A DNA stretch of 64,000 nucleotides from Ricordea florida (taxonomy: Eukaryota; Cnidaria; Anthozoa; Corallimorpharia; Ricordeidae), in assembly GCA_949710005.1 (NCBI GenBank), contig OX453287.1, forward strand, positions 19,617,017-19,681,016, given 5' to 3'. Positions 13,045 to 53,780 of the stretch are shown piece after piece; the first letter of the stretch is position 1, and each line of letters opens with the position of its first letter. The notes under the pieces were generated by a model. The model worked only from the letters and a program-made list of their open reading frames with translations, made no database searches and was not told where the DNA came from. The position numbers were made by a program, and so were the translations under genes.

Positions 13045-13215
13045 AGTAGTAGAGGGGGTCCGTAGAGGACAAATACTGAACGCTGATTGGCCGAGAGAAA
13101 TATGTGTGGAATGTGTCAAAACTGTCAAAACTGTCAAAACTGTCTGGCTCTGATTGGTGGACCGGAAGTATAAGTAGAAAGAGCGGGAAGAGCGCGGCAC
13201 GTAGTAGCGATGGCG
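13045..13215 (+). repeat. Left terminal inverted repeat of element 1
   Basis: It matches the reverse complement of 45003-45173 at 169 of 171 positions. The repeat includes the first two codons (ATG GCG) of the left terminal gene, and three 10-bp-spaced copies of CTGTCAAAA at about 13113-13143. Confidence 0.95.
13086..13174 (+). promoter_or_regulatory. Promoter inside the terminal inverted repeat
   Basis: Two inverted CCAAT boxes (ATTGG at 13086-13090 and 13153-13157) and a TATAAG box (13169-13174) precede the start codon at 13210 by suitable distances. Three phased CTGTCAAAA repeats lie between the CCAAT boxes. The same promoter recurs in the right TIR facing inward. Confidence 0.6.
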
Positions 13216-13722
13216 AGTGTAGAAGTCAGTAACGCGGAAAAAGTGTTACAAACAATAATAAGAAAAGAAGAGATAAAGAAAAGAGAAAAGAAAGCTGTAG
13301 GTGCTTTGAGTGATGTGTTAAAAGCAAGTGGTGTAGCAGAGAAGAATGTGGAGGAAAAAATTAATGAAACATTAATAGGGGGAAAATATTTTGTTCGCCT
13401 AGATGATGGAACGACGTATGAAACAAATCATGCTAAAGAACATGTGAAAAGGGAAGGAGAAGAGTGGTTCCATTTGCCATGGGAATTAAATCGAAGTTGG
13501 TGGCATCCGTACAAATGCGATTGTATTCTGCACTGGGATTCTCAAGCAAATAAGGAACAGTTACGATGGCAGTATGGTTGGAACATTGTAGCAGAATACG
13601 TGTGTAATGATTTCAAGAAACAAAATTTAGTGTTGGAAGCCGATCCATTGACGTGGTATTATTCGTTTAATCGTTTGAAAGTGGTCGATAATTTGGTAAG
13701 AGTAGAGACAATAAAAACATGA
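13210..13722 (+). CDS. Left terminal gene, unknown function (170 aa)
   Basis: I do not recognise this protein. It begins MASVEV inside the TIR, has a Lys/Glu-rich helical N-terminal third (residues 10-60), and a Trp- and Cys-containing C-terminal half (WWHPYKCDCILHW near 95-107). The opposite terminal gene starts with the same two codons because both lie in the TIR. AATAAA overlaps the stop codon, giving a very short 3' end. It converges on the minus-strand core-protein unit. The terminal position and shared promoter suggest early expression, which is inference. Confidence 0.7.
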   Translation: MASVEVSNAEKVLQTIIRKEEIKKREKKAVGALSDVLKASGVAEKNVEEKINETLIGGKYFVRLDDGTTYETNHAKEHVKREGEEWFHLPWELNRSWWHPYKCDCILHWDSQANKEQLRWQYGWNIVAEYVCNDFKKQNLVLEADPLTWYYSFNRLKVVDNLVRVETIKT

Positions 13723-14602: not shown

Positions 14603-14791
14603 CTAAAAGGTTATATAGATGGCTTTGGCTTTGTGCGTGATGGTGTTATAGGTTCGCATCCAATGTAATTTAAACCGTATAGCGGCAAGATCGAAAAACA
14701 TTTTAGCACAAGCTTGTTTTGCACCATCGGCCTGGTTAGCTCCACGAATGGCCATGGTATGCATCTGGAGGTCCTCAAAAGCAGAGTCAAT
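14603..14791 (-). CDS. Alternative 3' exon J of the RING gene (62 aa tail)
   Basis: This frame has no usable start codon at its head. It begins right after the acceptor GATTACGCAG (AG at 14793-14792), is open in phase 0, and ends with TAG at 14603. The donor after codon 284 of the RING gene (17105/17104) is also phase 0, so splicing gives a RING protein with this tail. The tail is Ala-rich and helical with a basic end. It overlaps exon I by 5 nt in another frame. Its function is unknown. Confidence 0.7.
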   Translation of the reverse strand: MDSAFEDLQMHTMAIRGANQADGAKQACAKMFFDLAAIRFKLHWMRTYNTITHKAKAIYITF

Positions 14792-14951
14792 CTGCGTAAT
14801 CAAAACAAGGGAAATCGTAAAAAAAAAGTTGTAAGGCAGTATCAAATTCATTCATCATATCGAAGAGATCGTTAGCAGCGTACCATCTCTTTAAGGAAAG
14901 AAGGTAGGTACCAAATAGATATTTTTTGAATTCAAAGAGCTTTGTACGGAT
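14787..14951 (-). CDS. Alternative 3' exon I of the RING gene (54 aa tail)
   Basis: It follows the acceptor CTTTTTTTTTTCTAG, is open in phase 0, and ends TGA at 14787. The tail begins IRTKLFEFKKYLFG and is aromatic-rich. The acceptor of exon J lies just before this stop codon, so the end of this reading frame doubles as the next pyrimidine tract. It requires splicing from the RING donor or another phase-0 donor. It does not resemble a family known to me. Confidence 0.7.
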   Translation of the reverse strand: MRTKLFEFKKYLFGTYLLSLKRWYAANDLFDMMNEFDTALQLFFYDFPCFDYAD

Positions 14952-14975
14952 CTAGAAAAAAAAAAGAAAGGTAGT

Positions 14976-15137
14976 TTAAGCTAAGCGGTCGGATGAATAC
15001 AACATCAAGCTTGCACTAGTAAGACTAACTACGGAACTTTGCAGGGTTCGAGTAGATTGTAAATCGTGCCCTTGGGAGTCTTTGGTGACCATGGTATCCG
15101 TTACATAGATAATACATGATGCAAACATGTCAAGAAT
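14976..15137 (-). CDS. Alternative 3' exon H of the RING gene (53 aa tail)
   Basis: It starts after the strong acceptor CCTTTCTCTCTCTTGTAG, is phase 0, and stops at 14976. The tail starts ILDMFASCIIYVTDT and has a Ser/Thr/Leu-rich helix. An internal Met is present but there is no good independent start at the head. It overlaps exon G by 8 nt. Confidence 0.7.
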   Translation of the reverse strand: MLDMFASCIIYVTDTMVTKDSQGHDLQSTRTLQSSVVSLTSASLMLYSSDRLA

Positions 15138-15312
15138 CTACAAGAGAGAGAAAGGGGTCGACCACCTTAGCACGTGTATATATTTGTTGGAAGGCGATAG
15201 AAGCAGTGCAAAACGAGGTAGCGACCAAATGGGTCATCACGTCAATATGATCATGCTGAATTAACATTTGCTCAAATACAAAGCTATTGGCCTCCTTGAT
15301 CAATGCACGTAG
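15130..15312 (-). CDS. Alternative 3' exon G of the RING gene (60 aa tail)
   Basis: It starts after the acceptor CACTTCGTCTATTCCAG, is phase 0, and stops TGA at 15130. The tail starts LRALIKEANSF and is predicted largely helical, with His/Asp in the centre. It overlaps exon F by 13 nt and exon H by 8 nt, in different frames. Confidence 0.7.
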   Translation of the reverse strand, partial: LRALIKEANSFVFEQMLIQHDHIDVMTHLVATSFCTASIAFQQIYTRAKVVDPFLSLVDS

Positions 15313-15458
15313 CTGGAATAGACGAAGTGGGAAATAAAAGTGTAAATAAACGAGGTAGCATAATAAACGGTTAAAGAAACTAAGGTAGATAGTACATGGT
15401 CATAATGTGGCGCCAGGTCAGCAGGGTGAAGGCAGCGTGTGTTAATAAAAAACCGTAT
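15300..15458 (-). CDS. Alternative 3' exon F of the RING gene (52 aa tail)
   Basis: It starts after the acceptor GGTTTCTCCCCAG, which lies inside the last codons of exon E, is phase 0, and stops TGA at 15300. The C-terminal half is hydrophobic (VSLTVYYATSFIYTF), so it may be a membrane anchor. This exon has no ATG at all. Confidence 0.65.
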   Translation of the reverse strand: MRFFINTRCLHPADLAPHYDHVLSTLVSLTVYYATSFIYTFISHFVYSSYVH

Positions 15459-15783
15459 CTGGGGAGAAACCATGAGTCGTTAGGAAATAAGCAGTAGTAG
15501 AGGGGTTAAATGAACTGAAGGTAAAAAGGGTATTCTCTATGTTTTTGGACAGGTTGAAACGGAGGGGTTCGTCATGTTTGCCGCGGGGTAGTAGGTTGTG
15601 TTCTCGTGCTATGAAAAACGAGGGGGATTTGAAAGATTTTAGATAAGTGCGAAAAATGTGATTAGCAAGGAAGAAGAGAAAGTTGGGAGCATTGCGAATG
15701 GTAGGTTCAGTTAGTTCTATACCCCATTGGTTGAAAGAACCACGAAGTGTGATCTGGCTAAAAAAACGAGTTGGTGGAATAAT
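15442..15783 (-). CDS. Alternative 3' exon E of the RING gene (113 aa tail)
   Basis: It starts after the acceptor CCCCGTTTTGTATTGCAG, is phase 0, and stops at 15442. The tail begins IIPPTRFFSQIT and is clearly paralogous to exon D (LVPPTRFYRKIT): both share the PPTRF start, a central Y-L-K/R-S/F stretch and the REHxLxxR segment. The pair is best explained by tandem exon duplication. No function is recognised. Confidence 0.75.
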   Translation of the reverse strand: MIPPTRFFSQITLRGSFNQWGIELTEPTIRNAPNFLFFLANHIFRTYLKSFKSPSFFIAREHNLLPRGKHDEPLRFNLSKNIENTLFTFSSFNPSTTAYFLTTHGFSPDTVFY

Positions 15784-15907
15784 CTGCAATACAAAACGGG
15801 GAAAATTAAATGTACCATGGGAAATAAATCTGAAACAAAAATAAAAAAGAGAATTAAAAGGTACTATCGCCTCTCAAGGCGAGTATGGTAATAAATGTGC
15901 CTTGTGT

Positions 15908-16329
15908 CAGGGACGGCGGAGCGTATTTTGAAGTGGGGGGGCTGAAAACGAATAGGGGGGTCTGGGGGCATCCTCCCCCAGAAAATTTTGAAATCTAGAG
16001 TCTCGGAAATCGTATTTACAACATTCTCCGCGACATACTTCTTGAAATAATTAGCCTGGATAAAGCGTAAAATGAAAGGTACTTTTAATGCTTACAGCAA
16101 TATTTTGGAGGTTATTTCTAGGCCTTCCGGTCTCCAACGCTAACCTGCGGATTTTGGACACAAGCTTCCCGTCTGTAGGAAGGAAGCACACGCTGAGAAA
16201 ATGTTAAAAATACGTAAACGTTTCCGACGAGGTTTGTATAAAGTTGTAGCTTAAACAAAATAAAATGTCATCCTCCTCGAAAGTGGGGGGGCTAAAGCCC
16301 CCCCAGCCCCCCCGGCTCCGCCGTCCCTG
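15908..16329. mobile_element. 422-bp MITE inserted in alternative exon D
   Basis: CAGGGACGGCGGAGC at 15908 is mirrored by GCTCCGCCGTCCCTG ending at 16329. The direct repeat TGTGT flanks both ends (15903-15907 and 16330-16334). Long G and C homopolymers sit near the ends. It interrupts the 3' part of exon D, whose reading frame now runs into the MITE. Confidence 0.8.
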
Positions 16330-16583
16330 TGTGTTACTCGGCTAGGTAACGGTGTGATAGAGCGGCGGTTACGGGAGAAGAGATGATGTTCACGTTTCAT
16401 GAGGTCTAGAGGGGATACGTAACTTCTTAGATAATGGTAAATAATAGGTTTCGCAGGTAAAAGTTTAAAAGGAAAGGTAGGGTTGTAGTCGCTCGTAGGT
16501 TTTTCAAAGATGATTAGAGGTGTAGCGCCAGGAAGACTAGTAACGGATGTTATCTTTCGGTAAAAGCGTGTTGGTGGAACTAA
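16251..16583 (-). CDS. Alternative 3' exon D of the RING gene, tail truncated by a MITE
   Basis: It starts after a T-rich acceptor ending TTTTTGCAG (AG at 16585-16584) and is phase 0. The first roughly 85 residues are homologous to exon E. From about 16329 the frame enters the inserted MITE and the last roughly 25 residues (Gly/Ala-rich) are MITE-derived. The original C-terminus is therefore lost in this copy. Confidence 0.65.
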   Translation of the reverse strand, partial: LVPPTRFYRKITSVTSLPGATPLIIFEKPTSDYNPTFPFKLLPAKPIIYHYLRSYVSPLDLMKREHHLFSRNRRSITPLPSRVTHRDGGAGGAGGALAPPLSRRMTFYFV

Positions 16584-16611
16584 CTGCAAAAAAAAAAAAA
16601 AAAAAAAAAAG

Positions 16612-16839
16612 CTAAGAGTTGAAAGAATGTAAAAATCTGAAAAGATGGGAAATATAACTGGGGAAGGGTTTTGTATCAGGGTTAAAAACCTCTAGTAATA
16701 AAGTGCGATTTTCATAATGGTGAAACTGGTAATCTATAAAGAGATCCAGGTTTTGGGCTTCGTGCAAGTCACAGCATTTAGGGTTACGATAAGCTTGATA
16801 GGTATAATATTCTTTAGCAGCTTCTAATTGTATTAGAGC
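16612..16839 (-). CDS. Alternative 3' exon C of the RING gene (75 aa tail)
   Basis: It starts after the acceptor CTTTACTTTTATTTTCAG, is phase 0 (GCT CTA ATA), and stops TAG at 16612. The tail starts ALIQLEAAKEYYTY, contains a Cys pair and His residues (KCCDLHEAQ, FHHYE), and is soluble in character. No ATG is present at its head. Confidence 0.7.
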   Translation of the reverse strand, partial: ALIQLEAAKEYYTYQAYRNPKCCDLHEAQNLDLFIDYQFHHYENRTLLLEVFNPDTKPFPSYISHLFRFLHSFNS

Positions 16840-16859
16840 CTGAAAATAAAAGTAAAGTT

Positions 16860-16976
16860 TTACGGGGAATTAATGTAAATAATACATAAGACAATGAGAG
16901 CGCCGATAAGCATAAACAGAAATAGCGAAAAACAGGCTAAGTAGTCAAAGTACTTTGTAGGAACGAAAACATGTAC
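16860..16976 (-). CDS. Alternative 3' exon B of the RING gene (38 aa membrane tail)
   Basis: It starts after the acceptor CCTTTTATTTCAG, is phase 0, and stops TAA at 16860. The tail has a single hydrophobic segment of about 25 residues and ends CIIYINSP. The unspliced read-through tail of the RING gene has the same plan (KYF, then a hydrophobic helix, then CLIYVNSA). The two are paralogous tail anchors, one reached by splicing and one by read-through. Confidence 0.75.
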   Translation of the reverse strand, partial: VHVFVPTKYFDYLACFSLFLFMLIGALIVLCIIYINSP

Positions 16977-16993
16977 CTGAAATAAAAGGAAAG

Positions 16994-17959
16994 TTAGGCG
17001 GAATTAACATAGATAAGACAAATGATAACGAGAGGCCACCCAATTAATAAGGTACATAGCATATAAACTGCGAAACAGTGAAAGTACTTGATAGGAGCAC
17101 GTACCGCGTTAATGCGCCTTTTGAATTCCGGGTCGCGGAGCAAGGCCGCTGTGGCTTGTTCTGAGCTCATGATGAAGTTGTCCGGTAACGGTTTCTTACA
17201 GAATGGACAGGTGAACTTGCGCTCGTTCATCCATTTGGTAAGGCAGTCATCGCAGATGATACCAGGACAGCATGGTAATGGAGGAATGAAGGTACGTTCT
17301 CTGCACAGATTACAGAGGGTAGCTCGTGGTGTACCATCGCGGGGCACGGTAAATGGCAGGGGTGCAGGGACAGGCAAGACAGCGGTCGGTAGTGGAGTGT
17401 TGCGGTTGATGGGTAAAGTAATGGTTGGCAAAGGTGGCGGCTGTTGTTGTTGCGGTGGCGGTTGTTGCGGTGGTGGTGGTGGTGGCGGTTGTTGCGGTGG
17501 TGGTAACGAAGGGAGAAAGGTCGGTGCAAATACGATGGGTGTTTGACAAGCAGCAACAGGAGTAGTTTGGGTAGCAGTGACACAGGTATTAGTAACGATG
17601 TGGCGTTGACTAGCAGCAACAGGAGGAACAGGCGTAGGTTGGGTAGCAGTGGCACTGGTATTAGTAATCATGTTGCGGATCTCCTGTTCCATAATACCAA
17701 GTGTGGTTTCTAAATCCACCATGGGGAGATCAGCATTGCGGTGCCTATCGACTATCACATCGTGTGTACCCTCATCCTCCGAAGTATCGGAACCCGAAGC
17801 AGCAGGAGAGATGGGAACAAAGCAGCCGTGTTGTTGAGTCTCCGTTTTTGTCGCTGGAACGGGTGAAGGAGCAGGCGTTGGCTCCTCGCAACGAAGGCGG
17901 TTTTCCTCGCGGGAGTATGGAGTAGAACGAGTCTTACGTTTTTTCCGACGCTCCGCCAT
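16994..17959 (-). CDS. RING-finger protein with C-terminal membrane anchor (common 5' exon)
   Basis: The start at ATG 17959 (MAERRKKRKTR) lies just downstream of a TATA box at 18008-18001; an in-frame upstream ATG at 17983 would be too close to that box. The 321-residue protein has a basic N-terminus, an acidic Ser/Asp patch, a long Pro/Gln tract (about 150-180), a RING finger at 216-257 (CNLC, CCPGIICDDC, CPFC), and a hydrophobic tail anchor at about 290-315. RING proteins act as ubiquitin ligases; the target is unknown. A GT donor (GCG|GTACGT, 17105/17104) follows codon 284, just after the RING, and precedes nine phase-0 acceptors downstream. Confidence 0.85.
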   Translation of the reverse strand: MAERRKKRKTRSTPYSREENRLRCEEPTPAPSPVPATKTETQQHGCFVPISPAASGSDTSEDEGTHDVIVDRHRNADLPMVDLETTLGIMEQEIRNMITNTSATATQPTPVPPVAASQRHIVTNTCVTATQTTPVAACQTPIVFAPTFLPSLPPPQQPPPPPPPQQPPPQQQQPPPLPTITLPINRNTPLPTAVLPVPAPLPFTVPRDGTPRATLCNLCRERTFIPPLPCCPGIICDDCLTKWMNERKFTCPFCKKPLPDNFIMSSEQATAALLRDPEFKRRINAVRAPIKYFHCFAVYMLCTLLIGWPLVIICLIYVNSA

Positions 17960-18138: not shown

Positions 18139-18187
18139 GGAGGAAAGGGTGCTTACTGTGAGCCATATAGCACCGAGCGGTGCTGTG

Positions 18188-18802
18188 ATGGAGTTCTTGG
18201 AAGATATGGAGAAACAAGAAGGAAACTATGCGTATCAAGTGAATGACCCGATTGGGAACAAAGAAAGATTAACGTGGCTGTTTTGGTTGAGCTATGCGAC
18301 TATAGTGCTACAACTGGTGTTGGATCTAAGCGAAGCATCCTGTTATGGATGTTCACATCAAACGACCCATCCCGGAGACCATAAATGCAGAGCATCGTTG
18401 AAGGATAAACTCGATGTGTTTTTTAACCGTGCTGTGATCAAAACCAAGATTGCTGATGTAGTAAGAACCTGGAAAGAGGAGTACTGTGTGATGGGAGAGT
18501 ATCCTAGGTGGATTATCGAGGAGCTATTTGATGACGAGTGGATCCAGGAACAGTTCGAGCACCCCCAGGCGACGACCCTATTGATGAGATGTATTCATAA
18601 AGCCCAAGAGTACCAACTGAACGAGCCCGAGGAGCCCGAGGAGGACGAGCAGGAAGTGGAGCTCACCCCGGACACCCTTACCATTCAGAACATGATGCAT
18701 TCCGAAGACGAACCGGACATGATCGAGGCAGCCAAGAAAGTCGAGGGGCAAGTGTACGTGGTTGCACCACCTAAACCTTTAGGAACGTGGCAATTTGATT
18801 GA
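18188..18802 (+). CDS. Acidic protein upstream of PolB, unknown function (204 aa)
   Basis: The ATG at 18188 (MEFLEDMEKQ) is the first in frame after the TATA box at 18132. There is one hydrophobic segment near residues 35-50, a CYGCSHQTTHPGDHKC cluster that could bind metal, and a strongly acidic C-terminal third (EEPEEDEQEVE). I do not recognise the family. It sits 36 nt upstream of the PolB reading frame, which has no ATG of its own, so the two may be linked by splicing. Confidence 0.65.
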   Translation: MEFLEDMEKQEGNYAYQVNDPIGNKERLTWLFWLSYATIVLQLVLDLSEASCYGCSHQTTHPGDHKCRASLKDKLDVFFNRAVIKTKIADVVRTWKEEYCVMGEYPRWIIEELFDDEWIQEQFEHPQATTLLMRCIHKAQEYQLNEPEEPEEDEQEVELTPDTLTIQNMMHSEDEPDMIEAAKKVEGQVYVVAPPKPLGTWQFD

Positions 18803-18827: not shown

Positions 18828-21800
18828 GTGTTTTGTAGAGAGCAAAGTGGTGGCGCCCGAAAAGAACATGCACATTTTCATTTGAAAACAGTAACCCGTA
18901 GACGCGTGGAAAAGTTCCAAACAGTGGGAGTGGATTATAACCTAGATGTGAAGTTACCTGAAGTCGATCGTTTAAAAGACGGTGTGGTGAATTTAGAGAA
19001 TGTGTTTGAACGAGTGATTGCTGAACTTACACGCAGGATGGCCCCAGACGATTATCTTCGCTTTGTGTTACAATCCAACGAGTTGGCGGCTCCCATAAGT
19101 TTACCATTTATGCCTGTGTCGGAATTGTCCTCGGAGCGCATCATGTACGAGGTGGAGCGGGTCTTACAATCGCACGAACAGTTGCATAGCAATCAAACCT
19201 TTGATGTCAATTTGATTCATGTGTCCAGACCGAGAGGAGCGAAAGGAAAACACATCATCAACATGCGTAAGCGTCTACAAGAGAAACATTGCTTGATTCC
19301 TATTGTCAACAAAGACGAACTGTGCATGGCCAGATGCATCGTGGTGGGTGTAGCGAAATGGGAGAATGACCCCGCCTATGAGATTTTAAGAAAAGGAGAC
19401 CATTGCAAAGAACGAGAGCATTGGAGTTACACCAACGAGCTGGAGTGGAATTAAAAGCTTGTGGCGTGGAGGAAATAAAACGATTTCAGACTGTGTTACC
19501 GGACTATCAACTTGTCATTGTGAGTGCAGCCCATTATAACAGCATCATCTACAAAGGACCAGACAGAGACAAACCCATTTACCTCTATCTGAATAACCAG
19601 CATTACGACTTGATCATATCCATGCCCGGACTTCTCGGCAAAAGTTATTACTGTTTACATTGCGAGAAAGGATACAACACGGAGGATAACCGTCATCATG
19701 CGTGCAAAAAGAAATGTTACTCGTGTTTCCAAATAGCCTGTCCCGGGGATGAATTCAGTTGGATCTTCTGCGAGAAATGTCAACGGTCGTTTAAAGGCAA
19801 AGAGTGTTTTGCAAATCACGAAAAGAAAGGACCCCAAGGTAGTCGAACAGTATGCGAGACGTATTTTAAATGCAAAGAGTGTGCCAAAGTGTTGGACAGA
19901 ACGCAACGAGATGTGACAACCCATAAATGCGGCGAAAAACTGTGTCATGTGTGTAACAAATACGTGGACTCGGAGCATCAATGCTTCATGCAAGTGGTCA
20001 AAAAGAGAAAGAGAAAGAGAGACGATGATGACGATGAACTGCGCATGCTGTTTTTTGACTTTGAATGCACCCAAGAGACGGGGTACCATTGTCCAAATCT
20101 AGTGGTGGTGCAAGACATCCATGGCAAAGAATGGGTCTTTCATAGCTGTGAAACCTTTTGCACGTGGTTGTTTGACGAGATGTCAGGGTCCACATGCATA
20201 GCGCACAATTTCAAAGGGTATGATTCTTATTTTATTTTAAATTATCTTTACAAAAATAACGTGAAACCAGTGTTAATTATGAATGGAGCCAAAATTATGG
20301 AATTGAAAGTACCCAGTGCCAATGTGCGATTTATTGACAGTTTAAATTTTTTCCCCATGGCCTTGGCCAAATTGCCCAAAACATTTGGGTTCACGGAACT
20401 GAAAAAGGGGTTTTTTCCTCATTTTTTCAATACGCGTGCTAATGAACAGTATGTGGGACCCATACCGGCGATAGAGTATTACGACCCAGATGGGATGAAA
20501 CCTGAGGTCCAACGAGAGTTTCTGAGATGGCATGACACGCAAAAAGATGTTGTATTTGACATGCGAAAAGAACTGCTCGACTATTGTAGATCAGATGTAG
20601 ACATTTTGCGTCGTTGTTGCTCTAAGTTTATTAGCACAGTTCAAGATCTTTGCCATATTCATCCCTTTGCGCAGTGTATGACCATTGCATCGCTGTGCAA
20701 TTTAATTTTTAGAAGTATGTTTTTAAGAGAAAAGTCCATAGCCATTATACCCCATTTGGGATATCGTAAAAAAGCTAAACAGTCGTACCTGGCCTATCAG
20801 TGGTTGAGCTACGAGTCGCACCAACACAACCTACGCATAGTCCACGGCCGAAACCAGGGGGAGAAGCGCGTGGGTCCTTATACCTTAGACGGGTACTGCT
20901 CAACAACCCAGACTGCCTACGAATTCCAAGGATGTTTTTTCCATGGTTGTACGAGATGCTTTCCAGCCACTACCGTGAACCCCATCAGTCAGCTTACCAT
21001 GCAAGAGTTGTTCGATCACACGAGGGCGAGAATCGAGTACATACAACAGCAAGGACTGAAAATGATCGAGATGTGGGAGTGCGACTGGAAAACGTACCTC
21101 AAAGACAACCCAGCAGCACAGCAATTTGTGTCCACCTTAGAGATCGTGGAACCTTTGAATCCTCGCGATGCCTTTTACGGCGGCCGCACCAATGCCACCA
21201 AACTGTTGGTCGAGAACCAAACCATAAAGTACGTGGATTTCACCAGCTTGTATCCAGACATCAACAAGAACGGCACCTACCCCATTGGTCATCCCACCAT
21301 TGTTACAGAAGGTTTAGACGCGAGAAACATTGACCAGTATTTTGGACTTATCAAATGTACTGTGCTTGCTCCTAGGGGTTTATACCATCCTGTGCTGCCT
21401 GTACGATGTAACAACAAACTCATGTTCACGTTGTGTCGGACGTGTTCCGACAACTTACAACAGACTGTTTGTAGACATAACGAAAACGAGCGACTGTTGA
21501 CGGGTACCTGGGTGACGTTGGAAGTCATGAAAGCCTTAGACATGGGCTACAAAGTCACCAAAATCCATGAAGTATGGCATTTCAAAGAGAAAAGTAGTAC
21601 GTTATTTAAAGATTACATTGATTTATTTCTTAAAAAAAAGCAGGAGGCCTCCGGCTTTCCCTCGTGGTGCGAGACAGACGAACAGAAAGACCGCTACATT
21701 TCAGATTATTTGACGCACGAGGGTATTTTGTTAGACAAAACACAAATTGAATTCAATGCAGGGGCCAGGAGCATTTGGAAACAGATTTTGAACAATATGT

Positions 21801-22480
21801 GGGGGAAATTAGGGCAAAGACCCAATCGTCCCAAAATAGAAGTCATCGATAATCCTAAACGTTATTTTGATTTATTTACGAGTGCCAAAATCAACGTGAA
21901 AGATGTGCATTTAGTGGCTGAGGAATTGGTTGAAGTGTGTTACGAGGAGGAAAACGAATTCGTACAAGCATCGGATCGTACAAATGTCGTGTTGGCCGCT
22001 TTCACAACAGCTCAAGCTCGGTTGAAACTCTACGACGAGATGATCAAGCTGGGGGAGCGAGTGTGCTATTACGATACCGATAGTCTGGTGTACATTTCAG
22101 AACCGGGATCGTACGAACCAATGCTCGGGGATTATTTGGGGCAATTAACCAGTGAACTCGCTAACAATGACCATATTACAACCTTCGTATCAGCAGGCCC
22201 TAAAAATTACGCCTACACAACGCACCAAGGAAAAACAGTCTGCAAAGTACGTGGGTTTACGCTGAATGTACGAACCAGCGAACAAGTCAACTTTCAGACC
22301 ATGGTAAACATGGTAAAAGGTAACTGTACCGATGAACTTGTAACACATAATCCGCACAAGATTGTCCGCGACAAAAAAACTAAAACGCTCAAGACGCAAA
22401 GCCAGGATAAACGTTACAAATTGGTGTACGACAAACGGGTCATCACCTCTAATTATGATACTGTACCTTATGGTTATTAA
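18828..22480 (+). pseudogene. polB: Protein-primed family B DNA polymerase, frameshifted
   Basis: Two overlapping frames, 18828-19454 and 19403-22480, together hold a Polinton PolB; the frame changes once near 19390-19420. The first has the family's FVLQSNEL and SLPFMPVS block. The second has Cys/His clusters (residues 80-170), exonuclease motifs DFECTQ (about 218), NFKGYDSY (about 270) and YCRSDVD (about 393), an endonuclease-like insert DGYCSTTQTAYEFQG (about 496), and polymerase motifs DFTSLYPD (612), NNMWGK (796) and YYDTDS (888). It would replicate the linear element from a protein primer. The 5' frame lacks an ATG but starts beside a good acceptor (CTGTGTTTTGTAG, 18838), suggesting an upstream exon. 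A programmed frameshift is possible, but I see no clear slippery site. Confidence 0.85.
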
Positions 22481-24556: not shown

Positions 24557-25410
24557 GTATTCCAAAAGGTATATCCTGTTACTGTTGTTTGTTACTTCCT
24601 GCACAAGGCCGACTTTGCCAAAAGAATCCTTTATGTTAACTGTGGTCCATGGCTGCATGTAAACAAAACCACATTCCTCAAGTTCGTCTTGGCACTGTTT
24701 TGATATTGTTGGTGCTGCATGACTTCATGTGATTTCCGACGCGGCCATCACTTCTTCAAAAGCCATTCTTTTTTTCCTGCAAACAAAAAAGGACCAAAAT
24801 GTTTCTTCTTCTTCTTATGTGGTGTTCTTCTGCTTTCAACATTGGGGACATTTTTGACACTGCTGACAACCAACAAGTTCGACAGTGGTACCTGGTTCCA
24901 TGGCCTGCTGACTTGGAGAGTTATACCTGTAAATTCCATTACAAGCACTAATAACAAAAGCTTTCCAAATACAGACTCCAAACGTCCATTGTAGAGTACA
25001 AGATAATGGCCTTCCTTTTTTGCTTTTTTCAATAGCAGCAGGTGACAAACCAATGTTGATGATGAATTAGTTTTTGCAACTACCTTGTTTGCAATATCTG
25101 CATGTTTATCAAGATGCATCTTTCCTACTGCCTTATTTGATGAGCTAACCAAAGAAATGAGCTTGTTTTCAGGCACGCGGAGAAAACTTGTGCAAACATG
25201 TCCTACAACTGCGTGACGTTTGGGTTTTGGTATACTCCATGTCAGCGATTTCAATTGTGTTTCTTTTTCCAGTCATAAGCAATCATCAATAGTGGTGCCT
25301 TCAAATGTGTTTATTCCCTTTGTTGCATCTCGTTGATCAGCGCGTGTACCAAGTATAAACATTGTTCAAGAACTGCTGGCGTGCTTCTGCAAGGTATTTC
25401 ATGTCCTTTT

Positions 25411-25588
25411 TCTGCAGCGGTCCTAAAGAGATGGTCCCTTATTGTTTCCACATTGCACTTTCCTCTTCTTTTCTGCAGTGGTCCTAAAGAGATGGTCCCT
25501 TATTGTTTCCACATTGCACTTTCCTCTTCTTTTCTGCAGTGGTCCTAAAGAGATGGTCCCTTATTGTTTCCACATTGCACTTTCTTCT
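25411..25588. repeat. 61-bp tandem repeat, about 2.9 copies
   Basis: Units beginning TCTGCAG start at 25411, 25472 and 25533, a constant 61-bp period. They are almost identical, which suggests recent duplication in otherwise decayed sequence. Confidence 0.9.
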
Positions 25589-28500
25589 TCACTCTTTGGG
25601 CACCTGAGAAAATGTCGAGTTGGAATAGTTGTAACCATCTTTGACTGTCGTCCTTTGATTCTCTTTGTTGAAGTTTAGTTTGTGACCAAGACAATGGAGA
25701 GAGTGTGTCCTACTCTCTTTGCCTATAATCACTTCATGCTGTTGTTGGAACTTTTTTGTTGATTGGCATTCTGTAGATCAACCTAGTGCTGAAGTTTTGA
25801 AGAAGATGAAGTTGTATGCCATGTTTCCATCAAAGTCTCTATATGCAATGTTTCCATCATTCTGTATGGTCATATGCAGTTGATGTTACCAGGGAAGGGA
25901 AATGTCTTAGTTATTTGGGTTCCCACCATTACTACGACGTCATACATATCTCTGTTAACAGTTGTAGCTCCTCTGAGTGGGAACAATATCAGCATATTCA
26001 ATTTCTTCACCTGATATGTGGCTATCATGGAGTATTTTGGAAGACATGGAAAAAACAAGAGGAGATGGGTATCGCCTCAAAAAAAAAAGGGGTACACATC
26101 TACAAAAGAGAAGTTTATGATTGATTATATTTTTTAATAACACCTAAATTTGTATTTTTGTTTTGCGGGGAATGTTCCAAAATGGGTCACTCATTCCAAA
26201 AAGACCATTGTGAACTAGTTGTTTTCTAACTCTTTCTTTGTCTAGTTCCAAAACGTTTTTCATCTTGATTCTGTACTGGAAGTTTCTGCTTTATCAAATG
26301 GGTCTCTGGTTTGACGTCTGCCTTCTGCACAAAACCAAAGTACCTTGGATCAAACTATTGTTGTCCTCTTCCTCATCTTTTCCAGAGCCATGTCAACAAT
26401 AACCTCGATAAAAGCGTCCACATCCACTTCCCCAACGTTCTTCCTCTAACGTCCGCCATTTCGTCTCTCCGGTCCTGTGGTAACAACTTTCCTTGGTAAG
26501 TTCAAAAGCATTCTAGTTTTCAAGCAAGGATGGTTTTTTACCTTTCCTCTTTATCTCTGGCCTACCGTTTGAAGCTTTTTGCATTTCTTTATGCCAAGCT
26601 TCTCTGCATCTCTGTCTTTAGCATCTGCTTCGGATGGGTACATTTTTTTCCTTTTCCTTGATTGAACAATGTTTTTCCATTCACCGTGTCCTGCTTCCAA
26701 TTCCAAATACTGACCAAAACCCAGACAGTAAATCGCAGTAAATCGTCCCATTCCAAACCCTTGACAGACCGTGAGTACTTATCTTGTGTTATTTCTTGGG
26801 AAACGGTTTCTCTCCATTGTTCCTCCTCCTGTGTTGCCTGTTCACAACACGCACAACCTTCGTTTGTCGTCCCCATCCATTGGTGAATAGCGTGTATCCA
26901 TAAACGTGAGTTGCCTGGCTTTCAAAGTGGTTACATTGGGTATTGCGTGTAGGATCGTCCATGTTAAGATCACTACAAAGCTTCAAAATGGTGTCAACTG
27001 TATTTTTATCATCCAGCTCTTTGTCAAGTTGCTTTCCAGATCTCTTTTTCAAGTTTGGTTAATCCCCTGTCCTTCTTTTCCCGTCATTCTATCCATGGTT
27101 CTTTCATTCTGATCGCTTGCCTCTGAAGGCGGTGAGGTCTGCCATTCAGAAACAGTGAAGTTTTGTTTGTTCTATTGCTTTTGAATGGCTGGAGAGGTAA
27201 AATATCGGGTTCGTTGCGTTGCTTTATGAAGGACAATATTTCTTTTTTTCATATGTTTTCTTTCCATGCCTCACATATTTGCTAAATCAGTATGACATCT
27301 CTTGCGGAATTGGGTTATTGTTGACATGCGTTATTTCTGAATTAGTTGCATCTTCTTCCTTTGCAAGGAGGTCTTTTCGCGGTGAAGCTATTCTGTTCAG
27401 ACTCATCAGACTCATTGCAAGCACAGAATGTAAACTGTTGTTAAAAAGATCCCTACATTTTTTTCCAGATCCTACATTTCCACAGCGTGAGATTCTGAGA
27501 GAATGCTGTGTTAAGGTATGATTTGCCCTGTGATGCGTGTGATGTTGGCATGGAGTCCTGGTTGTGCAGCCTCGAAGACCTCTTCTTCGTTCGTGACATT
27601 CACCTCTTCGAAGTCCATGGGTAAGACACGAGCTTTTTTTTTTGATATTACTCTTTCACTTGGAGAGAAAGGTCCCTGCTGAAGGTTGGTACTGATTGGG
27701 TTAACATAACTTGCACGCGTCGTGTAAACATTCTATTCCCAAAACAAAAAATGAGTGCATTTCCATGGTAGATGCAGATTTCTCTTATGGTAACAGTGCC
27801 TATTGGGTTCTCCCTAATTAGTTTCTTCCTGTTTGTACCCTGACGATGAACTGAGATTCTTTGAAGCTTTTCTATTGTCGGTTTGCTGTAGATTTTGGCT
27901 TCTTGGCACCAAGGTGACAACCCTGTAGATTACAACAACTCTGACAAAGAAGTCCTGGTACGTTTGTCAAGTAGTCTTCAAAAAACACATGCAGAACAGT
28001 AAGTTATTCGCCTGTCGTGATTGCTTTTTTCCTTCGACGCCATGCTGGTAAGTGTTTTTCTTCTTATGTTGTGAAACTAGCACAATGGATGGTCGTGGCA
28101 ACATTTGCAAGGATTCCTTTCCCTTTGTCACTGATGGTTGTGTTGAGTTCCATACATGCAGCCAGTATTCCCGCACAATTGCTACAGCCGTTTTGTATTG
28201 ATCCTCCTCTCGTATTTGGAGTCTGCGTTACAGCCGTTTTGTACTCATCCCCCTCGTATTTGGAGTATGCGTTCTGTTTGGGTGCTTGACTCTTTCTTCG
28301 TTTTTCTTCATCTCGTCCATGGCAGGTTGAGTTGTCGGATAGGAGGCCAGATTTGGGACACTCTGTAAGTCGACCTTTTCGAAAGTTTATTGTGTAACTA
28401 TGGAATATGTTTCAAAGGGTTTATTGCTTTCTTCCTTCGAAAAAGGTCCTTCCTGGAAGGTAGTTGCGACTGATTCTTTGGATTGTACAGTTCAATGTAG

Positions 28501-30392: not shown

Positions 30393-30475
30393 CTGGCGAC
30401 GAGGATCAACACAAGAATCCAAAAAATCATAATCAAGACGTGGGAACACATTATTCACCCGAAAAGCGCGTGAAA

Positions 30476-33400
30476 ATGGCAGCCGCAGCGCTCCCAAGCT
30501 TCCCGGAATTTGACCTCACCGACCAAGGGACGCAAGCTACTCGTTGGAAGAAATGGCTTTCGAGATTCAAAAATCTACTAATCGCCTTGGACGTAACAAA
30601 CAAACAACGACAAAGAGCCCTTCTTCTCCACTATGCAGGAGAAGCGGTGAATGAGATCTTCGACACTTTGCCAAACACGCAAGCCACTGAAACTGAAGAC
30701 CCGCTCGAGAAGGCCGTCCTAGCTTTGACCAATTACTTCACCCCGAAGCAAAATCGTGAGTACGAGATTTATATATTCCGTCAAGCAAAACAAGAGGCTG
30801 ATGAATCCATTACAGCTTTCCACACTAGGCTCAGGCAGTTGTCACTCACCTGTGAATTCGAAAACGTAGACCGCGAAATCAAAACGCAGGTCGTGCAGAG
30901 CTGCAGTTCGCACAAACTGCGAATGAAAGCACTCGAAAATCCCCAGTACACCCTCACACAGCTCTTGGATGCTGGAAAGGCCATGGAACTATCGAAAATC
31001 CAGGCCGCTTCAATTGAGGATAAGCAAGTTGTTCATACGATGTCGTCAAACTGTGGCAATCGAAGCCAGCGTAGGCAAAATAAAAGTAGAAAAGCAAAAC
31101 AAGATGGCGGACGTCCCGGCGAAGCCCAGCGGTCACGTGACCGGAAGTCTCGCAACATCAGTCACGACAAGCGGAAATCAAGCGAAAAATGCCGGAATTG
31201 CGGGAGAGAATACCCCCATCAAGGCGGAAAAACAGCTTGTCCAGCATACGGAAAAGCCTGCCGAGGTTGTGGAAAGATGAATCATTTCCAAGCCGTTTGT
31301 AGAGGAGAAGGCCGAAGCATGCATCGCTTACATGCGGATGAGGCGTCTTCAGGTGAATCCAGCGACGACGATGAAGTGTACACATTTTCACTGAGCACGA
31401 ATCAGGTCTCAAAGGACCAGCCTTTATTTGAAGTCAAGGTTCAAGGAACACCCGTGGTCATCATGGCGGACTCTGGGGCGAGCATTAATGTCCTGGACGA
31501 AAAGGATTTCCACAGGCTACCCAATGGCACCGAATTGGAGCACACCGCTGTGAAGATTTTTGCCTACCAGTCGAACAGCCCTCTTCACGTCATCGGAAAA
31601 TTTAGTGCAATCGTGGAGTCGGACACAAAGAAGGTGAACACCAGGTTCTACGTGGTGAAAGGTTCTGGTGGCTCGTTATTAAGCTGGAAGACCTCTCAAG
31701 AGTTAAACCTCCTCCAGATAGTACAGCAAGTCACAACAAAGCCGTCAACACTAAAGAACAAGACCGACACTGTCCCAAGCCTACTTGAAGAGTATGATGA
31801 CCTCTTCCACGGCCTAGGCAAGCTAAAGGGATATCAAGTGAAACTGCACATCGATGAGAACGTACCACCCGTTGCGCAGCCACATCGCAGGGTCCCATTT
31901 CATGTGCGCAAGCAACTCGAGGAGCAGTTACGCCACGATATAGAGTTGGGAGTCGTAGAAAGCATCGAAGGTCCCACGCCCTGGGTATCCCCAATCGTAG
32001 TCGCGCCGAAACCGAAGTCACCAGGAAAGATTCGCGTTTGCGTCGACATGCGTCAAGCCAACACAGCAATTAAACGTGAGCGTCACGTCACCCCGACGAT
32101 CAAAGAGATAATCGGTGACTTGAATGGCGCCAAAGTCTTCAGTAAACTGGATCTCAACCAAGGATACAACCAACTTGTCCTAGCGCCAGAGTCGAGGTAC
32201 ATCACCACCTTCAGCAGTCATCTAGGCCTTATGCGTTATAAGCGCCTTAACTTTGGAATCTCAAGTGCAGCTGAGATCTTCCAGAATGTAATCCGCGAGA
32301 CACTGGAAGGAATCGACGGCGCAATCAACATCAGCGATGACATCTTGGTCTTTGGCAAGAATCAAGAAGAGCATGACCGAAATCTGAGGGCAGTATTCAC
32401 GCGATTAAGAGAGAAAGGCCTGACCCTCAACAAGAACAAGTGCGAATACAGCAAGAACAAGCTCGAGTTCTTCGGATATGTTTTCTCTGAAGACGGCATA
32501 TCACCTGACCCCAAAAAGGTCGAAGACGTGGTCAATCTTCAAACACCTACAAGCGCATCCGAAGTACGGAGCCTACTGGGTATGACAAACTACTGCTCAA
32601 GGTTCATCCCAGACTACGCGACCAAGACAGAGCCCTTGCGCAAGCTTACGCACAAGGAACAGCCATGGCACTGGACAGCCGAGCATGACCGTGCAGTCGG
32701 TCAGTTGAAAGAAGCTCTGGTCAGCGCGCCAGTTACCGCATACTTCGATCCTGAGAAAGACACCGAGATCTCTGTAGATGCCAGCCCCGTTGGCCTAGCA
32801 GCCATCCTATCACAAGTAGACACAAAGACAAACGAACGACACGTGGTCACCTATGCAAGTCGTTCACTCACCGACGTGGAACAGCGATACAGCCAGACCG
32901 AGCGTGAAGCTCTCGCAGTCGTTTGGGCGTGTGAACACCTGCACCTCTACATCTATGGCAAGCCGGTAACAGTCTATACGGACCACAAACCCCTTGTATC
33001 GATCTATGACAATGCAAGCTCAAAGCCGCCGGCGAGGATAGAGCGTTGGGCTTTAAGGCTCCAGCCATATCAAATCACCGTCAAGTACCGGAAAGGCAAG
33101 GCAAATCCAGCAGACTATCTGTCACGGCATCCCAACAAGTTAACCACAAGAGCCAGCCGTCAACAGAAAGTGGCTGAAGAGTACGTAAACTATCTCGCTA
33201 CCACATCAACCCCAAAGGCCTTAAAGACGGAAGACATAGAATCAGCGACGCAGAGCGATCCGACCTTGCAAGCCGTAGCAGAGGCGATCCAGAAAGGAAA
33301 CTGGCACCACGTAAGCAAGTACCCATCCATTAACGTAGCCGATTTTCATCTGCTAGAGCGAGTGAAAGAGGAACTAACGCTTAATGCCCCTGGCAATCTG

Positions 33401-34531
33401 ATCCTCCGGGGCACGCGTATAGTCATCCCAAAGAGCCTGCAGGAACACGTAGTCGAGCTAGCACACGAAGGCCATCAGGGTCTTGTGAAAACCAAGTCGC
33501 TACTACGAGAGAAGGTTTGGTTCCCCAACATCGACAAGCTCGCGGAAAGCAAGGTGAAGACTTGTGCTGATTGTCTAGTCGCAACTCCCGAATGCAAGAG
33601 AGAACCTCTTCAAATGTCGCCACTTCCGGACGCACCCTGGACGCAAGTTAGCGTGGACTTTGCTGAGATGCCGGAAAAGGACTATCTACTTCTGATCACC
33701 GATGACTATTCCAGGTATCCGGTGGTAAAGAGAGTAAGGTCAACAGCAGCGAGCACTGTTCTTCCGAAACTCGACACTGTGTTCGCCGAGTTCGGCATTC
33801 CAGAGATAGTGAAGTCTGACAACGGTCCCCCTTTCAACGGAAAGGATTTCAAGTCCTTTGCGAAGGATCTCGGTTTCAAGCACCGCAAGATCACACCAAA
33901 ATGGCCTAGAGCCAATGGAGAAGTAGAAAGGTTCGTACGTACAGTAAAGAAGACAGTGAGAGTAGCGAAGCTCAAGCGCAAGAATCGACAACAGGAGTTG
34001 AATAAGTTTCTCCGGAACTATCGTAGTACGCCACACACAACAACACGCGTACCCCCGGCAACGGCCTTGTTTGGAAGGCCCGTGAAGACCAAGTTACCTG
34101 AAGTGATAAAGTCCACTGCTGATCACGAGATGAGACAGCGCGATCAGAAAGCAAAGGCAAAGATGAAGAAGCATGCTGACAGCAAATCGTACGTTAAACC
34201 GTCTGTTATCAAAGAAGGAGACAAGGTACTGGTCAAACGGGATGAGAGAATGAAGAAGAGTGACACGCCCTACGACCCAACACCCCGAGTTGTGGTAGAC
34301 AAGAAAGGAACGATGGTTACCGCAGAAACAGAAGATGGCGCCCAGATCACTAGGAATTCATCCTTCTTCAAAGCGGCGCCCACGGCGGAGGAAGATAGTG
34401 CACCCTCGGAGGAACTAGACGACTCCCTTGGAGCGGAAGCACATCCTCCGGCTGACAATACACCGCCAAGACGGTACCCGCTGCGCATACGCAAGCCTCC
34501 TGTCAAGTTTCAGGATTATGTCTGTTCATAA
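30476..34531 (+). CDS. Gypsy gag-pol polyprotein (1351 aa)
   Basis: The ATG at 30476 (MAAAALPSF) is preferred over an upstream GTG. Domains in order: gag with Cys-rich zinc knuckles (CRNCGREYP, then CRGCGKMNHF), aspartic protease (DSGASINVL, about 332), reverse transcriptase with the ISDD catalytic motif (about 620), RNase H (DASPVGLAA, about 765), and integrase with an H2C2 finger (HEGHQGL to CADC) and DDE residues in VDFAE, KSDNG and NGEVERF. It copies and inserts the element. Gag and pol share one uninterrupted frame. No chromodomain is obvious; the C-terminus is Pro/Arg-rich. Confidence 0.95.
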   Translation: MAAAALPSFPEFDLTDQGTQATRWKKWLSRFKNLLIALDVTNKQRQRALLLHYAGEAVNEIFDTLPNTQATETEDPLEKAVLALTNYFTPKQNREYEIYIFRQAKQEADESITAFHTRLRQLSLTCEFENVDREIKTQVVQSCSSHKLRMKALENPQYTLTQLLDAGKAMELSKIQAASIEDKQVVHTMSSNCGNRSQRRQNKSRKAKQDGGRPGEAQRSRDRKSRNISHDKRKSSEKCRNCGREYPHQGGKTACPAYGKACRGCGKMNHFQAVCRGEGRSMHRLHADEASSGESSDDDEVYTFSLSTNQVSKDQPLFEVKVQGTPVVIMADSGASINVLDEKDFHRLPNGTELEHTAVKIFAYQSNSPLHVIGKFSAIVESDTKKVNTRFYVVKGSGGSLLSWKTSQELNLLQIVQQVTTKPSTLKNKTDTVPSLLEEYDDLFHGLGKLKGYQVKLHIDENVPPVAQPHRRVPFHVRKQLEEQLRHDIELGVVESIEGPTPWVSPIVVAPKPKSPGKIRVCVDMRQANTAIKRERHVTPTIKEIIGDLNGAKVFSKLDLNQGYNQLVLAPESRYITTFSSHLGLMRYKRLNFGISSAAEIFQNVIRETLEGIDGAINISDDILVFGKNQEEHDRNLRAVFTRLREKGLTLNKNKCEYSKNKLEFFGYVFSEDGISPDPKKVEDVVNLQTPTSASEVRSLLGMTNYCSRFIPDYATKTEPLRKLTHKEQPWHWTAEHDRAVGQLKEALVSAPVTAYFDPEKDTEISVDASPVGLAAILSQVDTKTNERHVVTYASRSLTDVEQRYSQTEREALAVVWACEHLHLYIYGKPVTVYTDHKPLVSIYDNASSKPPARIERWALRLQPYQITVKYRKGKANPADYLSRHPNKLTTRASRQQKVAEEYVNYLATTSTPKALKTEDIESATQSDPTLQAVAEAIQKGNWHHVSKYPSINVADFHLLERVKEELTLNAPGNLILRGTRIVIPKSLQEHVVELAHEGHQGLVKTKSLLREKVWFPNIDKLAESKVKTCADCLVATPECKREPLQMSPLPDAPWTQVSVDFAEMPEKDYLLLITDDYSRYPVVKRVRSTAASTVLPKLDTVFAEFGIPEIVKSDNGPPFNGKDFKSFAKDLGFKHRKITPKWPRANGEVERFVRTVKKTVRVAKLKRKNRQQELNKFLRNYRSTPHTTTRVPPATALFGRPVKTKLPEVIKSTADHEMRQRDQKAKAKMKKHADSKSYVKPSVIKEGDKVLVKRDERMKKSDTPYDPTPRVVVDKKGTMVTAETEDGAQITRNSSFFKAAPTAEEDSAPSEELDDSLGAEAHPPADNTPPRRYPLRIRKPPVKFQDYVCS

Positions 34532-34989: not shown

Positions 34990-36138
34990 ATGGAGCCAAC
35001 CAAGAAGACCAAACCGATGTCCCCTGCGACGTGGTTGACCGAACGACAATCCATCCCCATCCTGAAAAAATTGTATTACAATCCAAAACTAAATCCCACC
35101 GCTTTTGGCGGTTCCCAAAATTTAATTCGTGCTGCTGCAAGCTACAAAGGAATCAAACCCTCCGTGACAAGGAAATGGTTACGGAACCAACCGGCGTTTA
35201 CATTGCACAAACCTGCTCGTACCAATTTTCTCCGCAGTCGAGTGACGGTGAACGGTATTGACGATCAATGGCAAGCGGATCTTGTCGATGTTCAGCGCAT
35301 AAAGCAATACAACGATGATTATCGTTATTTACTGACGGTGATCGACGTTCTCTCCAAATTTGCGTGGGTCATCCCGTTAAAGAATAAAACAGGACAAACG
35401 TTAATCGACGCATTTGACCTTATTTTTACGGCGGAACAAACTACTCCGGATCGTCTACAAACGGATAAAGGGACAGAATTTACGAACAAGAAATTGCAAC
35501 GCTATTTGGCAACAAAACACGTGCATCATTTTGTGACTTACAATGACCCCAAAGCACAAATTGTGGAACGTTTTAATCGTACTCTCAAGGAAAGAATGTG
35601 GCGTTACTTTACACATGCTCATAGTTATCGTTATCTGGATGTGTTGGATGATTTGGTGGAAAGTTACAACAAAAGTTATCACGGCAGCATCGGTATGGCA
35701 CCCGATCAAGTTACGGTAGCGAATGCTCAGGATGTGTGACGGCATTTATACGGCAACAATCTGGTGCAGCGTGTAAAGAAATTAAAATTCAAGTTTAAAG
35801 TGGGCGATCAGGTGCGGATTTCTAAAAATAAAGGTATCTTCGCTAAAGGATATACTCCCAATTGGACTGAGGAAATATTTACGGTTGCCCGACGGAACAA
35901 AACGATGATACCTCCCAACTATCGTTTAAAGGAATACGACGGTACTTGGCTGAAAGGAAACTTTTACGAACAGGAACTGCAAAAAGTAACCATGAAAGAC
36001 ACTGACTTGTTTAAAATTGACTATATCGTTAAAACCACAGGTTCGGGTCGTCGGAAAAAACACTTAGTACATTGGCGCGGCTGGCCAAAAAAATACGATA
36101 GCTGGATTTCAGCTGATGCTGTACGTAACTTAAGATGA
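34990..36138 (+). pseudogene. int: Polinton integrase with chromodomain, one nonsense codon
   Basis: Frames 34990-35739 and 35740-36138 are the same frame separated only by a TGA at 35737-35739. The first part has the DDE core (QADLVD, TDKGTEF, VERFNRT). The second has an SH3-like fold (KFKVGDQVRISK) and a C-terminal chromodomain (HLVHWRGWPKKYDSW). The enzyme would insert element ends and create the 6-bp duplication. The chromodomain may direct insertion to particular chromatin. The stop sits where the family usually has Trp, so this looks like a point mutation in a once functional gene. It heads the plus-strand block of capsid genes. Confidence 0.9.
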
Positions 36139-39900: not shown

Positions 39901-39938
39901 AACGAAGTACCTGTATGTTGTTTGTATCATTTGTAAAT

Positions 39939-40598
39939 ATGGCTTCATCCTACGAAGAGCCGTTCTTGAAATCGCCTTCGTGTATTATGATCGTTGGCCC
40001 CAGTCAATGTGGCAAAACCACCTTCACCAGACAATTAATACACCATGCAGCGCGTTTATTTGATCGTCCCCCTAAACACATTGTGTATTGTTACGGTGCC
40101 AGTCAACCCTGTTTTGAGGACATGAAAAAACAAGGCATTCATTTTCACGAAGGACTTCCTACCGACATAGAAACATTGTTTCCCGCTCATAAACGACCCG
40201 GTCTCTTGATTTTGGATGACCTGATGCGTACCTGTAGTCAGGATGAAGAAGTGGTGGATCTTTTCACGAAGCGATCCCATCACAACGACGTGACTTGTAT
40301 TTATTTAGCGCAAAATGTCTTTCCACCGGGTAAATTTGCGCGTACCATTTCTTTGAACGTGCACTATTTGGTGGCGTTTAAGAATCCACGCGATGCTTTA
40401 GGTATCCGTAATTTAGCGCAACAATCGTATCCCGATCGCGTCAAATACATTATGGAATGTTATCGTAATGCCACCAGTACCCCTTACGGTTATCTTTTGT
40501 TTGACCTTCATCCCTCCACGCAGGACGATTTGCGTATTCGCACCAATATCTTATCTGACTATCCTATTGTCTATCAACAAGACGAAGACAATAAATAG
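39939..40598 (+). CDS. FtsK/HerA-type genome packaging ATPase
   Basis: The start at ATG 39939 (MASSYEEP, A at -3 and G at +4) is preferred to the ATG at 39915. Walker A is GPSQCGKTT (residues about 19-27) and Walker B is LLILDDL (about 87-93), with a Gln in LAQNVF as a sensor candidate. The ATPase pumps the element's DNA into preformed capsids. The frame is intact and follows the protease gene. Confidence 0.92.
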   Translation: MASSYEEPFLKSPSCIMIVGPSQCGKTTFTRQLIHHAARLFDRPPKHIVYCYGASQPCFEDMKKQGIHFHEGLPTDIETLFPAHKRPGLLILDDLMRTCSQDEEVVDLFTKRSHHNDVTCIYLAQNVFPPGKFARTISLNVHYLVAFKNPRDALGIRNLAQQSYPDRVKYIMECYRNATSTPYGYLLFDLHPSTQDDLRIRTNILSDYPIVYQQDEDNK

Positions 40599-53768: not shown

Positions 53769-53780
53769 ATAGGTTGAAAA

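Follow-up and report, generated by a model that had tools for sequence, protein, structure and literature searches.

The RING exon and its row of tails

We analysed a window of 64,000 nucleotides (nt) from the corallimorpharian Ricordea florida (contig OX453287.1), the whole stretch being counted from its first letter. A Polinton-type element bounded by terminal inverted repeats (TIRs) occupies positions 13045-45173 of the window, and its left block is a RING unit that is transcribed away from the polymerase gene. On the minus strand this unit consists of a RING exon, a read-through tail A and then nine tails, B-J, each of which opens in phase 0 directly behind a putative 3' splice site (acceptor). 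The observation of a RING exon followed by a row of acceptor-headed tails, made in a preliminary description of the sequence, was confirmed. The features are listed below; L-numbers denote RING-exon loci in the host genome, group 1 is the lineage of the window, and pN/pS is the ratio of nonsynonymous to synonymous differences per site.

17959-17105, minus strand: shared RING exon 1, 285 codons, with a basic N-terminus, a Pro/Gln-rich stretch, a RING-like domain and the end ..RRINA
17104-17099, minus strand: 5' splice site GTACGT (context GCG/GTACGT), phase 0, directly after the RING exon
17104-16994, minus strand: tail A, read-through (intron-retained) C-terminus, 36 amino acids (aa) and a stop, with a transmembrane-like stretch
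16976-16860, minus strand: tail B, 38 aa, acceptor-headed, a second membrane-like tail
16839-16612, minus strand: tail C, 75 aa; AG head kept in L031-L034; pN/pS 0.32-0.60
16583-16251, minus strand: tail D, 110 codons to the first stop, with an inserted repeat from about 16329
16329-15908: 422-nt insert resembling a miniature inverted-repeat transposable element, with 15-nt TIRs; interrupts tail D
15783-15442, minus strand: tail E, 113 aa, homologous to D and to the group-2 tail t3
15458-15300, minus strand: tail F, 52 aa; intact in L032, broken in L031
15312-15130, minus strand: tail G, 60 aa
15137-14976, minus strand: tail H, 53 aa; a TAG in frame immediately precedes residue 1
14951-14787, minus strand: tail I, 54 aa; a TAG in frame immediately precedes residue 1; the least constrained tail between the window and L032
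14791-14603, minus strand: tail J, 62 aa; pN/pS 0.37-0.54

All nine heads (16976, 16839, 16583, 15783, 15458, 15312, 15137, 14951 and 14791) lie directly after C/TAG and are open in phase 0, and the overlaps of adjacent frames (E/F 17, F/G 13, G/H 8 and I/J 5 nt) match the range of 5-17 nt given earlier. The GT donor lies where it had been placed, at 17105/17104, but the exon before it has 285 codons rather than 284. That the frames lack a head ATG holds for residue 1 of all nine heads in the window and fails as a universal rule, since the group-2 tails t3 and t4 start with ATG. Each frame had also been credited with a stop of its own, which is incorrect for D: its frame enters the insert at about 16329, and therefore its present stop is not its own. 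The insert is decay of the window copy; in L031 and L032 the D tail has 99 and 96 codons, respectively. D and E are homologous, with 39% identity. The best 19-residue hydropathy of tail A is 2.49 in the window and exceeds 2.0 in 26 of 27 other copies read. By eye, A and B look like a duplication, and L031, L032 and L034 have a single read-through membrane-like copy in place of the two. A Pfam search at E 0.1 returned no family for the window tails B-J (D cut at 84 codons). Poly(A)-like hexamers are scattered across the arrays, and we draw no conclusion from them.

The identity of the RING domain was assessed with a profile built from 13 copies, which matches the RING chains of UHRF1, RNF125, RNF213 and CBL with a best E of 1e-7, while single-sequence Pfam RING matches of the window exon are weak and under the cut-off. 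The 13-copy alignment contains eight RING cysteines, six of them invariant and two present in 12 of the 13 copies; a CC pair occurs among them, and no His is conserved.

Relatives of the array in the host genome

The search of other elements for a RING exon followed by acceptor-headed rows, which had been proposed with the first description, was run in the host genome (538 Mb, 48 contigs) and found divergent copies as well as three further lineages. Of 96 matches to the RING exon, 20 were read with 6-7 kb of surrounding sequence and one more with 4 kb, and 1.5-kb flanks were read for 30 (including those 20 and the window's own). L031 and L032 contain all eight tails from C to J in the same order, with a pyrimidine-AG immediately preceding every head, at 38-76% identity per tail (tblastn). 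L033 and L034 keep a partial array. Related frames that carry ATGs or are not open had been named as evidence that would count against the proposal. L031 and L032 retain the heads of C-J with their acceptors, phase and order, and L033 and L034 do so in part, whereas tail F of L031 breaks off after 18 aa, L034 has a broken D/E-like frame, and t3 and t4 have the ATG starts mentioned above.

The three further lineages (groups 2, 3 and 4) share this architecture with mostly different tails, up to 8-13 of them. Distinct arrays, whether complete or partial, occur in twelve group-2 copies and three group-3 copies; in L043 two tails are left. In group 2, 72 of 88 possible heads were found, 71 of these behind AG, and the 16 missing heads fall mostly in L043 and in t8. 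In group 3, the heads of u1-u12 were found in 24 of 24 cases and that of u13 in neither of two. Tails of the two groups form the colinear pairs t1-u1, t2-u2, t4-u4, t5-u6, t6-u7, t7-u8 and t8-u11, and t3 was matched in L047 and L048; short or weak rows were omitted from the family alignments. Comparison of the group-1 tails with those of groups 2 and 3 gave no convincing match except D/E with t3. Homology between C and t2 was considered and rejected as suggestive at best, the best t2 match having an E of 0.024 against 0.0045 for the best shuffle. The group-4 copy L053 has the donor CTT/GTAAGT and a t2-like tail. Inspection by eye adds a u3-like tail and, behind acceptors of their own, three neighbouring tails that resemble one another, with a fourth in a longer acceptor-headed frame; the similarity of these neighbours points to tandem duplication. 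Duplication, gain and loss appear to have changed the tails but not the RING or the splice sites, and the presence of the same layout in divergent genomic copies suggests that alternative splicing would fit one enzyme with many tails.

Nine further copies were read over 1.5 kb, and eight of them have a GTAAGA donor and seven both first tails. The ninth, L030, has the donor GTAGGT and, 2.1 kb downstream of its RING match, a match resembling J. Genome-wide, tail E has six matches and tail J four, one of them at L030. Tail t2 has 76, some of them fragments; a RING match lies upstream on the same strand within 10 kb for 70 of these and is absent for six. The distance from t2 to the RING match is 302-399 nt in 68 of the 70, with one of 871 and one of 4740 nt.

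Reading phase, acceptors and coding constraint

Open frames can arise by chance on a pyrimidine-rich strand of a decaying element, and indeed the strand is T/C-rich and the window copy is decayed by the insert in D. We counted the phases open behind strong acceptors in 20 regions, namely the window and 19 relatives (L035, in which the array is missing, was omitted, and the donor of L033 was set by hand here and in the head counts below). At a threshold of 45 codons, 112 frames in phase 0 were open behind 155 strong acceptors, compared with 5 and 12 in phases 1 and 2, respectively; on the reverse strand of the same regions the counts were 4, 3 and 2, and the expectation from shuffling was 2.3 (summed mean of 100 dinucleotide shuffles per region). 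The window alone gave 6, 3 and 2 by phase against a shuffle mean of 0.43 (maximum 2). With a looser cut-off the window has 24 pyrimidine-AG sites, nine of which are the heads; four of the 15 non-head sites also open at least 45 phase-0 codons. Of these four, one lies shortly before the insert and one within it, and the other two fall within E and J and share their frame.

Across all lineages, residue 1 is immediately preceded by AG in 145 of the 146 homologous heads. This count takes in the reference arrays (window, L045 and L048), which were chosen by their acceptors; without them, the proportion is 115 of 116. A stop codon in frame immediately precedes residue 1 in 75 of the 146 heads. L035 and the broken D/E-like frame of L034 were omitted from the head count. 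Positions -3 to -1 before the heads are nearly fixed, and the frequency of change at third codon positions is roughly double that at first and second positions (group 2, 0.131 against 0.062 and 0.053; group 1, 0.298 against 0.190 and 0.155). Between the window and L032, pN/pS was 0.62 for A, 0.40 for C, 0.65 for D, 0.67 for E, 0.50 for F, 0.68 for G, 0.50 for H, 1.04 for I and 0.37 for J, and the 95% intervals of C, D, E, F, H and J lie entirely below 1; B was outside this comparison, the window D was cut at 84 codons, and L031 F was omitted from the set. The last 85 codons of the RING exon gave 0.24 (window-L032) and 0.22 (window-L031), with synonymous sites near saturation, and a tail-like 0.58 between L031 and L032. 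Because this last value resembles those of the tails, faster evolution of the tails than of the RING exon is only suggested. Taken with the phase bias, the AG before the heads and the third-position bias, these ratios indicate that a chance origin is already refuted for most tails, and we give it next to no probability.

A pyrimidine-AG directly before every frame would also fit an operon-like transcript in which the tails are separate small genes, each receiving a trans-spliced leader at its acceptor, and the RING exon is merely the first gene. Some families are compatible with such an arrangement: 65 of the 146 heads have a Met among their first 10 residues, and t3 and t4 have one at the very start; moreover, hydrozoan cnidarians are known to have spliced leaders and an operon (PMC3273482, PMC11067881). 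The cited passages place leaders in hydrozoans, however, and are silent on anthozoans either way. In B, D, E, F, I, t2, t7, t8, u2-u4 and u7-u13 no copy has a Met in the first 10 residues, and in C one of five has, so that in these families the leader would need to supply the AUG. In addition, such an operon leaves the phase-0 donor at the end of the RING exon and the uniform phase 0 unexplained. We consider separate leader-spliced genes very unlikely.

The RING donor and the proposed choice among acceptors

The donor at the end of the RING exon was scored with a simple weight matrix. In the window it ranks first of 110 GTs around the array, with a low absolute score of 2.4. The donor was read in 27 copies among the 30 loci examined (the window's own copy L001, L006 and L020 have no donor row); the hexamer is GTAAGA in 22, GTACGT, as in the window, in four (L002-L005), and GTAGGT in one. 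Among all GTs of each array, the RING donor is top-ranked in 14 of 20 arrays, and its worst rank is fifth. A second 5' site scoring at least 5.5 was found in none of the 13 arrays scanned.

Proximal acceptors are usually preferred, and the weak group-1 donor could be taken to mean that the RING donor uses just the first one or two acceptors, with the distal tails being relics or joined to donors elsewhere, such as that of an upstream leader bypassing the RING exon. Acceptor-like sites before the ATG of basic open reading frames (ORFs) downstream of the array hint at such a further leader exon. Against this, the distal tails stay in frame like the proximal ones, down to J with its pN/pS of 0.37-0.54, and have no start codon at residue 1, and the E/F, F/G, G/H and I/J overlaps leave scant room for a promoter and a first exon. 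We consider this reading very unlikely.

We conclude that, very probably, one pre-mRNA with one donor and many alternative 3' splice sites yields a shared RING protein with about ten alternative C-termini. The comparison of copies establishes the donor, the acceptors, their phase and order, and the coding constraint at the sequence level, and from this comparative genomics we infer the splicing itself. The earlier proposal that acceptor choice adds different C-termini to a shared RING is supported by the conservation of heads, acceptors, phase and order in the relatives. In the proposed mechanism, the viral transcription unit would give a single pre-mRNA beginning with one RING exon. Left unspliced, the RING 5' splice site would lead into tail A and a membrane-anchored RING protein; joined to any one of the tandem 3' splice sites, it would open a short phase-0 frame with its own stop. 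About ten proteins would result, alike in their RING domain but each with a C-terminus of its own, and some of these C-termini would be membrane anchors. The tails come with an acceptor and a stop but generally with no better exit, consistent with selection of a single 3' splice site at a time. Chained use of the tails as internal exons was considered and is disfavoured, because no second donor reached 5.5 in the 13 arrays scanned (L034, outside that scan, has a non-RING GT of 5.6).

The RING would recruit ubiquitin-conjugating enzymes, and the tails might choose location or substrate, a role that we put forward as a guess. One compact gene could in this way act on several host proteins and acquire new targets by duplication of tail exons. 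Whether the virus family keeps an expandable, plug-in library of tails behind one RING exon, with up to about 13 acceptors giving ubiquitin-ligase variants of different targets or locations, and with new targets arising by tandem duplication of tails and no new promoter or donor, is in our judgement evenly poised.

Several observations, beside the Met-bearing heads, the ATG starts and the L034 site already mentioned, weigh against alternative splicing of a shared RING. The RING donor is modest in absolute score in every group scored (group 1, 2.4; group 2, 5.2; group 3, 3.7), and one to four other GTs outscore it in L031, L032, L033, L034, L048 and L050. No constraint is visible on tail I between the window and L032, the intervals of A, G and I include 1, and so do many of those for window-L031 and L031-L032. 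The RING, by eye, is without a His at the place usual in the C3HC4 pattern. L053 has a short read-through with no obvious membrane helix by eye. L035, a close copy (94-100% identical in matched pieces), is without everything between exon codon 57 and the downstream ORFs, hence without most of the RING exon and all tails, with the flanking genes kept. No spliced retrocopy, that is, an intronless RING-tail copy, occurs among the t2 matches, as none of them abuts the RING exon. Tail E was modelled with AlphaFold from an alignment whose sole further row was D; the model reached a pLDDT of 38 and was not used. Finally, IMG/VR searched with the RING exon, the DNA polymerase B (PolB), the RING alignment and the t2 alignment gave no relative, records of this genome or near it possibly being excluded.

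Comparison with known systems

The closest known logic is, by analogy, that of the PML isoforms, Drosophila lola and the polyomavirus T antigens. PML (TRIM19) isoforms I-VII share RING-bearing N-terminal exons and have alternatively spliced C-terminal exons, and one isoform differs in location (PMC3533183). PML and the viral array would have in common a RING N-terminus with alternative C-termini. PML differs in being a cellular gene with seven isoforms and an RBCC motif, and it has no row of acceptor-only terminal frames behind one donor; homology between the two was gauged by the similarity of RING profiles alone. Drosophila lola joins a common N-terminal BTB region to unique C-terminal exons in at least 20 isoforms, by cis- and trans-splicing (PMC1947980). 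Unlike the RING unit, it is a cellular transcription factor with another N-terminal domain and mostly zinc-finger tails.

The early region of polyomaviruses encodes T antigens with a shared N-terminal J domain and alternatively spliced C-termini, a handful of products, and they are not known to have a tandem row of tails. Small DNA viruses would in both cases combine a shared N-terminus with different C-termini, a J domain there and a RING here. With Polinton/Maverick and adintovirus elements, the present element has TIRs and the PolB and rve integrase genes in common, beside candidate capsid and ATPase genes. The available passages of an adintovirus preprint (PMC11071296) and of PMC12220804 make no mention of a RING tail array, and in the open-licence literature, at the level of titles and abstract openings, we found no comparable viral tail-array system. 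A protein search with the RING exon joined to tail A gave no match at E 0.01 among the 8000 candidates that share most words.

If the splicing is real, the array would equip one viral enzyme with uncommonly many alternative C-termini, a pattern seen in four or more lineages of the endogenous viruses of one host, and would show a compact virus carrying and evolving many effector specificities in one gene. Given the apparent turnover of tails with a stable RING and stable splice sites, the arrays could record an arms race and serve as a natural library of short ligase-targeting domains. They would also make testable a general question, the choice of one donor among ten consecutive acceptors.

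The host element and its surroundings

Apart from the RING unit, the element contains the following features.

13045-13221: left TIR, 177 nt, 98% complementary to the right TIR
14587-13738, minus strand: downstream small ORFs with their own ATG, basic (MPKRRRR.. and MPKRRRYRRK..), and MPKAARYRYIY..; matches occur after the array in several relatives
18149-18802, plus strand: unknown ORF, divergent to the RING unit
18828-19454, plus strand: ORF without a Pfam match at E 0.01, perhaps the N-terminal part of the polymerase
19403-22480, plus strand: DNA polymerase B (PF03175, E 7e-55)
34990-35739, plus strand: integrase (rve, PF00665, E 1.6e-13; the Pfam scan gave rve only)
38019-39353, plus strand: capsid-like, weak (Capsid_N E 0.0058, below the cut-off; no match to a PDB capsid by sequence)
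39915-40598, plus strand: ATPase, with P-loop ATPase matches including Pox_A32 (E 0.02)
44997-45173: right TIR, 177 nt

With its TIRs, PolB and rve integrase, the element is by gene content of Polinton type. Adintoviruses have been defined by a PolB with an OTU-like N-terminal domain, an integrase with a C-terminal chromodomain and a hexon recognisable by BLASTp against adintovirus hexons, as given in the passages of PMC11071296 cited here; we assign the present element no further than to Polinton type. The small ORFs at 14587-13738, like those of L041, have an acceptor-like pyrimidine-AG shortly before their own ATG, which hints that further genes on this strand may be leader-spliced too. Between PolB and the integrase, 30440-34531 encodes an open retroelement polyprotein of 1363 aa, by its look of gag-pol type, and an ORF with a GRF zinc finger (E 3.1e-8) lies at 43028-43912, near the right end of the element. 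A 61-nt unit occurs in three tandem copies, 97-100% identical, at 25408-25590.

In the host mitochondrial contig (21,378 nt), cox1 is in two pieces with an open intron-like stretch between them, a split that fits a hexacoral cnidarian; an Rfam search of two mitochondrial pieces gave no match. Within the window, a second, AT-richer virus-like element was noted at 48000-64000. It contains no RING-exon match and has the following genes.

49110-53768: polymerase-like ORF by its look, with no DNA_pol_B match at E 0.01
53781-54791: integrase (rve)
54826-56067: capsid-like (Capsid_N E 0.0008)
56153-56779: ATPase-like ORF by its look

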